Part shown: positions 31,208 to 34,772 of the stretch, piece by piece
How positions within the stretch are numbered: the stretch's first letter is position 1
How the letters are laid out: each line of letters begins with the position of its first letter
DNA from: an uncultured Acidaminococcus sp.
GTDB lineage: Bacteria > Bacillota > Negativicutes > Acidaminococcales > Acidaminococcaceae
Length of the DNA: 64,000 nt
Assembly: GCA_900315205.1 (NCBI GenBank)
Contig: OMYF01000002.1
Span: 1 to 64,000 of the forward strand
Direction of reading: 5' to 3'
Notes under the pieces: model-generated
Seen by the model: only the letters and a program-made list of their open reading frames with translations
Databases searched by the model: none
Told to the model about the DNA's origin: nothing
Made by a program: the position numbers and the translations under genes

Positions 31208-31290
31208 GGGATGCAAGGAAACCGGGAAAAACGCGGCAGTTTAGCAGCAGAACAATATAAAAGGATATTTAAAAGAAAGTGGGAATGGAT

Positions 31291-32481
31291 ATGGAAAATG
31301 CAAAAACATCACTTCTCGATAATGGAACGCTGTGGTTTGGCGCCGGTGTCTCGATTGCAGAAATACTGGCCGGCACCCTGCTGGCCCCGCTGGGAATGAC
31401 CAGAGCCATCGAAGCGATCCTGCTGGGACATCTGCTGGGCGGCATTTTGTTCTATCTGGTCGGGCTGATCAGTGCCCGAACGGGCCGCACCGCCATGGAA
31501 GCAGTAAAAATGGCATTCGGACATAAAGGCGGACTGTTCTTTGCCGCGCTGAATGTCATCCAGCTGATCGGGTGGACGGCCATCATGATTTATGATGGAG
31601 CTCTTTCATCGGAGGCGCTGCTGGGCGGGTCCCACACCCTTGCCTGCTTTCTGATCGGCGGCCTGATTGTGCTGTGGATCGCACTGGGCGCGGGCGGTCT
31701 TTCCAAAGTCAACCGGATCGCCGTGACAGCTCTGTTTGTCCTGACGCTGGTGCTTTCGGCAATCGTCTTCCGGGGAGGTGCGCATCCGCAGGCAGCTGCA
31801 GAGACCCTTTCTTTTGGAGCGGCTCTGGAAATCGCCATCTCCATGCCCCTTTCCTGGCTTCCTGTGGTGGGGGATTATACCTGCCACGCTGCGGATGGCA
31901 AAAAGGCTACTCTGGTTTCCACGATTTCCTATAACCTCGTGAGCTGCTGGATGTTCGTGATTGGAATGGGTGCTGCCCTGTTTGCAGGCAGTTCCGAAGT
32001 GGGAACCATTATGCTGAAAGCCGGGCTGGGGGCTGCAGGTCTTTTCATCATCGTCTTCTCCACTGTTACGACGACATTTCTGGATGCACTCTCCGCCGGG
32101 ATTTCCCTGACTGCCATCAAGGGCGTCGGGAAGGAAAAACAGTTTGCCATCCTCACTGCAGTAATCGGGACAGCTGCAGCAGTCTGTTATCCCATGGACA
32201 ATATCACGGAATTCCTGTACTTTATCGGCTCCGTATTCGCTCCCATGGCCGGTGTCCTGATCGGCTGTGTGCTGATCGGGAAGCGGGATTTCTATCAGGA
32301 AGCCTGCTCCTGGCGGAATATCCTTGTCTGGACCGCCGGTTTCATAGGCTATCGTTACCTGATGACGCTCGATATCCCGGTGGGATGCACACTTCCTGAC
32401 GTGGTACTGGTCATGCTCGCTGCCGCTCTGGTGCAGAAAAGAAATGGCCGCGGGCAGCAGCTGGAAAAAATAAATGGCTGA
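31291..32481 (+). CDS. cytX: CytX-type hydroxymethylpyrimidine permease
   Basis: A 396-residue nucleobase:cation symporter-1 member with about ten to twelve helices. The N-terminus NAKTSLLDNGTLWFGAGVSIAEILAG and the segment GRTAMEAVKMAFGHKGG followed by NVIQLIGWTAIMIYDGA match the CytX branch, which imports the thiamine precursor hydroxymethylpyrimidine. Start choice among GTG 31279, ATG 31285 and ATG 31291 is uncertain; the last is spaced best from GGGA. In many bacteria cytX sits behind a TPP riboswitch; the 80 bases upstream are too short for one and no thiamine genes adjoin, so control and substrate remain inferences. Confidence 0.85.
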   Translation: MENAKTSLLDNGTLWFGAGVSIAEILAGTLLAPLGMTRAIEAILLGHLLGGILFYLVGLISARTGRTAMEAVKMAFGHKGGLFFAALNVIQLIGWTAIMIYDGALSSEALLGGSHTLACFLIGGLIVLWIALGAGGLSKVNRIAVTALFVLTLVLSAIVFRGGAHPQAAAETLSFGAALEIAISMPLSWLPVVGDYTCHAADGKKATLVSTISYNLVSCWMFVIGMGAALFAGSSEVGTIMLKAGLGAAGLFIIVFSTVTTTFLDALSAGISLTAIKGVGKEKQFAILTAVIGTAAAVCYPMDNITEFLYFIGSVFAPMAGVLIGCVLIGKRDFYQEACSWRNILVWTAGFIGYRYLMTLDIPVGCTLPDVVLVMLAAALVQKRNGRGQQLEKING

Positions 32482-32924: not shown

Positions 32925-34343
32925 TTACTGATTGACTCCCACCGCTGTTTCCTTGGCAATCGCTTTATTCGAAACCAGGCTGATGCCGCAGAAGGTAAGG
33001 CTGCATACGATCCATTCCGCGTAGATCACGTGGGGCAGGATACGCACGGCGGGCACGAACATCCAGGCCACCAGGACGATGATCGAGGCCATGATGGTAT
33101 AGAAGGCAGCCTGACGGGCGCAGTATTTCGGAGCATACATGGTCATCAGGACGATCACTGCGAAGGCGGTCATCAGGGAAAGACCGGCCATCAGCGTGGA
33201 GATGATGCCGCTGATCGTCAGAGCGAAGCCCAGTGTGAGCAGCCCCAGCAGAAGGACGGCTGTACGGGTCACTTTCATATATTTTTTATCGGATATTTCC
33301 GGTTCGATGAACCGTTTATGGATATCGTGGGAGTACAGCGTCGCGGCCGAAAGGAGCAGGTTGCAGGCCGTGCTGACGTCAGCTGCCCACAGGGAAGCAA
33401 GGGTAATGCCGGCAATCCATGGATTGAGGGACATGATCAGCTGCGGCAGTGCCTGGGTCGGGGCGATGGACGGATACAATTCCGCCGCGATCACGCCGAG
33501 CAGTGCGGAAATGAAGCCGACGGGAAGCATGACGAAACCGCCGATGATGAAGCCTTTGCGGGCGGTTTTCACATCTTTGGCGCCCAGGGTGATCTGGATG
33601 ATCGCCTGCAGGGACAGGTTCACCGTAACGAGGACGGCAATCCAGGTGATGATGGTCATGGGACCCACGCCGCTGATGAAATCAAGCGAAGTAAGGGAAG
33701 GTGCCTTGATGGCGACAACGTCGATGCCGCCGACCATCGCAAGGATCAGGAACGCTGCCACGGTGATCCCGATGTACTGCAGCGTCACGTTCAGGATGTT
33801 AGACTGGCTGGCCGACCACATTCCGCCGATCAGAGTGATGCCGATGAATACGACCGCACTGGTCAGCATCCCCGTGAAGGGTGTGAAGATCTGCGGCAGC
33901 AGGGACGCCAGGATTGCACCGCCGGCTACATACTGCATGCTCATGATGACGAGCTGCACGAGGACCTGGCAGGCAATGCCGGCCACCATGCTGCGGCGGT
34001 CATAATAGCGCTCCAGCAGTTCCGGGACTGTCGTGATGTTCAGACGGCGGTATTTTTTGGCAACCGTCAGTCCCATGACGATGGCGCCGATACCCCAGGC
34101 TGCTGTATACCAGCCAGCGGAGAGACCGACCTTATAAGCCTGTTCTGCCACGCCGATTGTGGACGCGCCGCCGACGGCGAGGCCGACGATGGATACCATG
34201 ATGAGCGGGGTCGTCAGTTTACGCCCTGCCAGTACGTATTCCTCGGCTGATGCAGCGGCCCGTCGTTTGACATACCAGCTGATGCCGAAGAGCACCCCGA
34301 TATACGCCACAATGATGATGATCTGGATTGATGCTGTTCCCAT
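32925..34343 (-). CDS. sodium:solute symporter (SSF) under T-box control
   Basis: A 472-residue Na+-coupled transporter with about 13 helices. Family features include the opening helix IIIIVAYIGVLFGISWYVKRR, SAEEYVLAGRKLTTPLIMVSIVG with the characteristic GR-x-L segment, GGASTIGVAEQAYKVGLSAGWYTAAWGIG and the sodium-site helix region LWAADVSTACNLLLSAATLYSHDI. The substrate cannot be read from the protein. The leader, however, is a T-box whose specifier codon is UUC, so expression should rise when tRNA-Phe is uncharged, which makes phenylalanine or a precursor the best guess. GAGAGGAGA supports the ATG at 34343. Confidence 0.93.
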   Translation of the reverse strand: MGTASIQIIIIVAYIGVLFGISWYVKRRAAASAEEYVLAGRKLTTPLIMVSIVGLAVGGASTIGVAEQAYKVGLSAGWYTAAWGIGAIVMGLTVAKKYRRLNITTVPELLERYYDRRSMVAGIACQVLVQLVIMSMQYVAGGAILASLLPQIFTPFTGMLTSAVVFIGITLIGGMWSASQSNILNVTLQYIGITVAAFLILAMVGGIDVVAIKAPSLTSLDFISGVGPMTIITWIAVLVTVNLSLQAIIQITLGAKDVKTARKGFIIGGFVMLPVGFISALLGVIAAELYPSIAPTQALPQLIMSLNPWIAGITLASLWAADVSTACNLLLSAATLYSHDIHKRFIEPEISDKKYMKVTRTAVLLLGLLTLGFALTISGIISTLMAGLSLMTAFAVIVLMTMYAPKYCARQAAFYTIMASIIVLVAWMFVPAVRILPHVIYAEWIVCSLTFCGISLVSNKAIAKETAVGVNQ

Positions 34344-34383
34344 GATTGAAATCTCCTCTCTGAATGCAGATATTTCCCGAAAT

Positions 34384-34700
34384 AAAAAAAGCCGCCCCTC
34401 AAAGGGACGGCTTTGGCCGCGGTACCACCCAATTTATCGAAATAAGAATAAAAAAAGGGCGGTACACAAGGGACGGATCATTCCGCGGTACCACCCTACT
34501 TATCTTGAATCGATCAACTCATGGCCGGATAACGGCAGCCAGTCCGGTACAGCCTACTCTTCGTTCAGCCATACAGTTCGGGAATGAACTTCGTGCCATC
34601 CTGCCTGTCTCCTCACACCGCCCGGGGACTCTCTGAAAGGCTCGACCGCATTACTTTATTCCGTCATTACTGTTTTCGGGAAATTCTGTTGTTACTCCAC
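34384..34700 (-). promoter_or_regulatory. T-box leader, UUC (Phe) specifier, tandem antiterminators
   Basis: Read on the minus strand this leader has all T-box parts. Stem I carries AGAGAG and a specifier loop CGAA-G-TTC-A, with TTC at 34588-34586, aligned the same way as CGAA-A-GGC-A of the Bacillus glyQS T-box. AGTAGG and CCGTTA follow. The T-box word AGGGTGGTACCGCGG appears at 34497-34483 and again (GGGTGGTACCGCGG) at 34430-34417. Terminator 1 pairs GGGTGGTAC with GTACCGCCC before seven Ts; terminator 2 is GCCGTCCC/GGGGCGGC before seven Ts (34413-34384). Both TGGT words match the A73 discriminator of tRNA-Phe. There is only one Stem I. Confidence 0.9.
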
Positions 34701-34728
34701 ATTCTACAGGAAAATACGGTAAAGTCAA
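34701..34728 (-). promoter_or_regulatory. promoter of the T-box transcript
   Basis: On the minus strand TTGACT (34728-34723), 16 bases, then TAGAAT (34706-34701). Transcription would begin near 34694, at the 5' edge of T-box Stem I. Confidence 0.75.
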
Positions 34729-34772
34729 GAGAATTTTTAGAATTTTGTCAATCCATTGTAAGGGGGAAAGAC

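Follow-up and report, generated by a model that had tools for sequence, protein, structure and literature searches.

The SSF gene and its T-box leader

The window, by which we mean the whole 64,000-nucleotide stretch of DNA analysed here, encodes on its minus strand (32925-34343) a sodium:solute symporter (SSF) of 472 amino acids, a predicted phenylalanine carrier. The initial annotation of this locus had named an SSF symporter as the gene controlled by the leader, and the PF00474 match bears this out (E 3e-28; 99.1 bits, gathering threshold 22.8; profile positions 1-404 of 406). The Ser/Thr pair of the Na2 site is present, with V-S-T in the query aligned with V-S-S in vSGLT (S364/S365). The protein scored far below the cut-off of every NCBIfam equivalog model and is therefore not PutP, PanF or MctP. 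A gene for a CytX-type hydroxymethylpyrimidine transporter (31279-32481, plus strand) is convergent with the SSF gene.

In a tree of 77 SSF proteins, only two changes are needed to explain which genes carry a T-box: the first lies on the deep branch leading to a paralog group that lacks it, the second is a loss within the window's family. The window protein sits inside the Megasphaera branch (support 97/90) although its genome belongs to another family, and this ortholog was not found in the sequenced genus-mates of the genome. The gene and its leader were therefore probably transferred horizontally together, gene and riboswitch as one module (32925-34735 in the window; L023-L035). The genome has kept pheA, so that phenylalanine uptake would complement synthesis.

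A sigma-70-type promoter, TTGACT-16-TAGAAT, can be read upstream on the same strand (34701-34728; -35 box at 34728-34723, -10 box at 34706-34701). The Rfam T-box covariance model RF00230 matches at 34676-34466 of the minus strand with 119.3 bits (gathering threshold 93; E 8e-26), and the alignment spans the full length of the model (positions 1-219 of 219); the match covers unit 1 only and ends with antiterminator 1 (34466-34676). Judged from its sequence, the leader is thus a member of the T-box class, and a response to uncharged tRNA is predicted. The distal part of Stem I (34613-34634) carries the T-loop motifs AGAGA (34634-34630) and UGUGA (34617-34613), which in known T-boxes bind the tRNA elbow (PMC7583486). 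The covariance alignment gives the specifier loop as GAA-G-UUC-A, with the phenylalanine triplet UUC at 34588-34586, and register and triplet are identical across all SSF leaders. The alternative registers GUU and UCA were rejected on the covariance alignment and the conserved spacing; moreover, the base after the triplet varies (A, C or U) whereas UUC is constant, which fixes the register. The phenylalanine specificity proposed by the initial annotation therefore stands, as the alignment did not move the specifier off UUC and the tRNA-Phe of this genome has the anticodon GAA. The same tRNA ends in ...GGC-ACCA and hence has A73, to which both UGGU words are suited, again as had been proposed.

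Downstream of Stem I, stem IIIa (34505-34519, minus strand, as are all features of the leader) consists of the stem III 5' strand, a loop and a first 3' strand, with 5' strand and loop common to both units. It is followed by T-box word 1, AGGGUGGUACCGCGG (34483-34497, UGGU at 34493-34490), which provides the 5' strand of antiterminator 1 and also that of terminator 1. Terminator 1 (T1; 34450-34496) pairs GGGUGGUAC (34496-34488), a part of the T-box word itself, with GUACCGCCC (34465-34457) and runs into U7. A second 3' strand for stem III, UCGAU-A-AAUU (34431-34440), recognised from covariation across the class, has as its partners AUCGA (34514-34510) and AGUU (34519-34516), and together these would form stem IIIb. 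Antiterminator 2 (34402-34430, UGGU at 34427-34424) lies next, and terminator 2 (T2; 34384-34414), of canonical build, pairs AAAGCCGUCCCU (34414-34403) with AGGGGCGGCUUU (34399-34388) ahead of a U run. On folding, antiterminators 1 and 2 reach -8.4 and -9.7 kcal/mol, both with the exact 7-nt bulge UGGUACC, and the terminators, each preceding a U run, reach -21.5 (T1, z -4.8) and -25.1 kcal/mol (T2, z -3.2). Within each unit terminator and antiterminator are mutually exclusive: T1 takes the 5' strand of the antiterminator, T2 the 3' strand.

The leader thus has, as initially annotated, a duplicated antiterminator/terminator behind one Stem I, both units folding with a strong terminator each and word 2 being able to form its antiterminator bulge. 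The two UGGU words are 66 nt apart. Unit 2 has neither Stem I nor specifier, so that the leader is not a full tandem, with a Stem I and specifier to each unit, and instead falls into the class named 'partially tandem' (PMC7583486). The remaining 16 T-boxes of this genome have one antiterminator each and terminators that read as canonical, which makes the SSF leader an exception within its own genome. The genome also has two complete T-boxes in tandem ahead of a methionine-type ABC transporter operon (L009/L013; G000 C83:11003-11570).

Distribution of such leaders and the genes behind them

A whole-genome search for two T-box words 36-66 nt apart found such pairs in 77 of 380 genomes of the class, taken to be the Negativicutes from its named relatives (Megasphaera species), against 3 of 384 sampled genomes from elsewhere in the phylum (Fisher p 9e-22); a control pattern read backward gave no match in the class search. 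Within the class the pairs are unevenly spread, with 1 of 189 genomes in one family (f20) against 76 of 191 elsewhere, and in one f20 genus (22 genomes) the SSF gene was likewise not found.

The comparison set comprised 91 distinct leaders. An SSF ortholog, 55.6-100% identical to the window protein, lies directly downstream in 61 of them, and the specifier loop GAA-G-UUC occurs in all 61 (by an automatic pattern, with a few read by eye). The remaining leaders precede genes for TrpX-type substrate-binding proteins (UUC or UAC), a family-3 solute-binding protein, DAHP synthase (UUC) or serC; outside the class the downstream genes encode a family-5 binding protein, trpE and a class-V aminotransferase. 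Two leaders upstream of aroF (L067 and L068, in genomes G065 and G066; also G064 C132) have three units behind one Stem I with UUC, and their linkers before words 2 and 3 are complementary to the same stem III 5' strand, over about 6 bp and about 8 bp, respectively.

At three places (L104/L105, L106/L107 and L114/L115) adjoining genes for TrpX-type binding proteins have partially tandem T-boxes. In each of the twin loci L104/L105 and L114/L115 one leader reads UAC (Tyr) and the other UUC (Phe), suggesting that specificity changed recently, after duplication. One leader (L121; G319 C36, near locus position 439) precedes only the C-terminal part of an SSF gene, and the transporter there looks deleted or decayed.

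Terminator asymmetry and the second stem III 3' strand

The canonical T-box terminator uses the 3' strand of the antiterminator (PMC7583486). We determined the type of each terminator by direct strand comparison, word and 3' strand each being paired with the downstream segment, since the class obtained from folds varied with the choice of U run. In the window, the word of unit 1 pairs with GUACCGCCC at -18.3 kcal/mol and the 3' strand with the downstream segment at 0.0, whereas in unit 2 the word reaches -8.4 and the 3' strand -22.3. T1 is therefore not a copy of T2 but sequesters its own T-box word, a point missed in the initial annotation. This is the rule over all leaders: of 93 non-final units, 83 have a terminator built on the T-box word. 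The ten exceptions are four serC leaders, four leaders from outside the class, and two near-ties whose folds are of the word-pairing type. Final units are canonical in all 89 determinable cases. The triple aroF leaders obey the same rule, with units 1 and 2 terminating against the T-box word and unit 3 canonically.

The initial annotation also overlooked that unit 2 brings its own 3' strand for stem III and draws on unit 1 for the 5' strand. Immediately 5' of word 2 lies a segment whose sequence complements the only stem III of the leader, in both 5' strand and loop. Matched partners in this linker/stem III duplex pair at -12.3 kcal/mol on average, against -8.3 +/- 0.28 (sd of the mean) when partners are swapped between leaders (0 of 20000 permutations); because related leaders are not independent, the test was also made with one representative for each of 12 divergent clusters (z -5.9). 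A position scan confined the complementarity to the stem III region (-11.2, against about -5 to -7 elsewhere in the leader), and pairing of the linker with Stem I or stem II was rejected on this ground. In an alignment of 28 leaders, seven of eight helix pairs change on both sides (covariation score 0.404 against 0.245 when shuffled, 0 of 500), and sliding the partner by one column lowers pairing from 86% to 54% and 47%.

The window's own subgroup was read by hand, as MAFFT cannot align the matched insertion that it contains. Here the stem III loop carries no insertion, a U or a C, and the linker correspondingly none, an A or a G, giving AUC-GAU/AUC-GAU, AUC-U-GAU/AUC-A-GAU and AUC-C-GA/UC-G-GAU. 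The matched bases are complementary, not identical, and the notion of the linker as a plain copy of stem III was rejected. Stem IIIb helices of 8-14 bp occur and end mostly four bases ahead of the GGG of word 2; the helix is 12 bp in L119, and the four leaders from outside the class (L085-L088) show stem IIIb too, with 14 bp in L087 and 10 bp in L086. In the window it is short (5 bp, a G/A mismatch, 4 bp) and by energy alone ranks 51 of 80, no better than swapped partners; at this locus it is the relatives in the class that carry the case for stem IIIb.

Known T-boxes have a purine-string motif, RRRxG-stem III-AA (PMC7583486), and in the leaders studied here AA stands at the same distance 5' of word 1 (54 of 77) and of word 2 (62 of 77). 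Stem IIIb pairing and AA spacing together argue that the duplicated part is the sensor of the tRNA end, made up of a stem III 3' strand, AA, antiterminator and terminator. Stem I, stem II and the stem III 5' strand appear to be common to all units, and it is the second stem III 3' strand that would connect unit 2 with the tRNA on the one Stem I. With only one 5' strand available to the two 3' strands, the sensors of units 1 and 2 could not coexist. A strength ratchet, in which stem IIIb would be stronger than stem IIIa, was unsupported strand for strand (Wilcoxon p 0.05); with IIIb not clearly stronger, the direction of the switch would have to be set by the order of transcription and by binding of the tRNA, stability alone being insufficient.

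A model of serial tRNA sensing and its alternatives

We think it rather probable that this T-box probes one and the same tRNA-Phe for charging at two successive steps and so controls an SSF symporter for phenylalanine uptake. The specifier, both units, the T1/T2 asymmetry and the stem IIIb pairing are shown by the comparison of leaders; from these we infer a hand-over of the tRNA, a role of T1 as a trap, and AND behaviour. Stem I, with its specifier UUC, would capture tRNA-Phe. If the tRNA is uncharged, stem IIIa and antiterminator 1 would form, since ACCA pairs with the UGGU of word 1; otherwise terminator 1, which needs word 1 too, would form and transcription would end. Once the polymerase is past T1, the duplicated stem III 3' strand would oust that of stem IIIa and pair with the same 5' strand and loop, and this formation of stem IIIb would loop out unit 1 and give unit 2 a rebuilt sensor of the tRNA end, consisting of stem III, AA and antiterminator. 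The hairpin of terminator 1 would meanwhile trap the used word 1, leaving the tRNA end free for word 2; a canonical terminator would not hide its own UGGU. Only a tRNA that is still uncharged would then stabilise antiterminator 2 against the canonical terminator 2. The outcome would be AND logic on one tRNA, with low leak and a steeper dose response. The initial annotation had seen in the double unit a two-step terminator with a tighter off state, which is plausible as far as it goes and incomplete, as it leaves out both the terminator asymmetry and the second stem III 3' strand.

It is tempting to extend this to partially tandem T-boxes at large, as single-tRNA proofreading switches in which strand exchange passes the tRNA 3' end from sensor to sensor as the polymerase advances, up to three times in aroF, with used words trapped in their own terminators; for this wider proposal we see the chances as evenly balanced.

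Several other explanations have to be weighed against the hand-over of a single tRNA. Two tRNAs might act in series: the one on Stem I would stay with unit 1, another uncharged one would bind to unit 2 in trans, and stem IIIb would be merely the local stem of the second sensor. In known T-boxes an isolated discriminator (stem III and antiterminator) does bind strongly to the 3' end of the tRNA (PMC7583486, PMC7430163), and two words with identical UGGU have been kept; but stems IIIa and IIIb share a 5' strand, so that both sensors cannot coexist, and with no specifier of its own in unit 2 codon specificity would be lost, which makes this unlikely in our view. We give similarly little credence to unit 2 as a back-up terminator that lowers leak, with the tRNA acting mainly at unit 1 and stem IIIb having no part in a hand-over. 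Low leak is indeed the gain to be expected, and in the window T2 is stronger than T1. Such a terminator, however, would need no T-box word, 7-nt bulge, AA or covarying stem IIIb, all of which are kept class-wide. That the linker resembles the stem III 3' strand by descent only, through copying and with pairing of no present function, we hold to be very improbable: the 3' strands of stems IIIa and IIIb are related in some leaders (L071, L073), yet copies would match and not covary, and here insertions in the loop are met by complementary insertions in the linker and seven of eight pairs change on both sides.

As to the substrate, we infer phenylalanine. The initial annotation had predicted a carrier for phenylalanine or an aromatic precursor, and the first of these is favoured by the 61 SSF orthologs that all lie behind UUC leaders; a precursor is less likely, given pheA in the genome and the sister leaders that serve TrpX-type binding proteins (UUC/UAC). 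SSF members carry many solutes and the window protein reaches no NCBIfam equivalog cut-off, and the symporter might thus bring in something else, such as a keto acid or pantothenate, merely needed in phenylalanine starvation. Against this, UUC is found in 61 of 61 cases and the same leader architecture serves TrpX-type amino acid binding proteins, and we regard another solute as improbable.

With the canonical T-box (RF00230; B. subtilis tyrS and glyQS type) the leader shares a Stem I with specifier and distal T-loops, a stem II region, stem III, the 7-nt antiterminator bulge with UGGU and a final terminator that uses the antiterminator 3' strand. It differs in having an additional antiterminator/terminator that lacks a Stem I and a stem III 5' strand of its own, in a first terminator that uses the 5' strand (the T-box word), and in two alternative 3' strands for stem III. 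Full tandem T-boxes such as the thrZ and trpE leaders (PMC2494555, PMC12452182) likewise have two or three serial terminators for the same amino acid, from which a sharper response is expected, but there each unit has its own Stem I and tRNA, whereas in the present leaders all units make use of one Stem I and a single stem III 5' strand. The arrangement is of the same kind as in the 'partially tandem' T-boxes of a 2020 review (PMC7583486), which gives no mechanism and lists among the unknowns how tandem and partially tandem T-boxes act. Phenylalanine-specific T-box control of a sodium-coupled transporter has a parallel in the B. cereus group (PMC2494555), where the transporters are of the NSS family, not SSF, and no shared-stem double unit is described. 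No description of a shared stem III or of the T1/T2 asymmetry was found in the T-box papers searched, which deal with full tandems; the two main comparative surveys, by Vitreschak (2008) and Gutierrez-Preciado (2009), lie outside that scope.

Stem IIIb and the T1/T2 asymmetry offer a concrete, mutable model for partially tandem T-boxes. If true, it would describe a kind of kinetic proofreading, in which a riboswitch moves one ligand molecule along a series of identical sensors and so checks it several times. The leader further gives a specific substrate prediction, phenylalanine, for a widespread Negativicutes branch of SSF that curated equivalog models leave unnamed, and T-box annotation that stops at unit 1, like the Rfam match here, misses the second decision point.

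The canonical T1 of the serC leaders and of partially tandem leaders from outside the class implies that the role of T1 as a trap would not be general. Two of the latter (L085 and L088, G403) have a CCACC element 3' of the canonical first terminator, and this could pair with word 1, another route to hiding a used word. In three serC leaders (L057, L058 and L059) and in L087, all with canonical first terminators, word 1 has UGGC and word 2 UGGU, so that the base facing the tRNA discriminator differs between the units of one leader.
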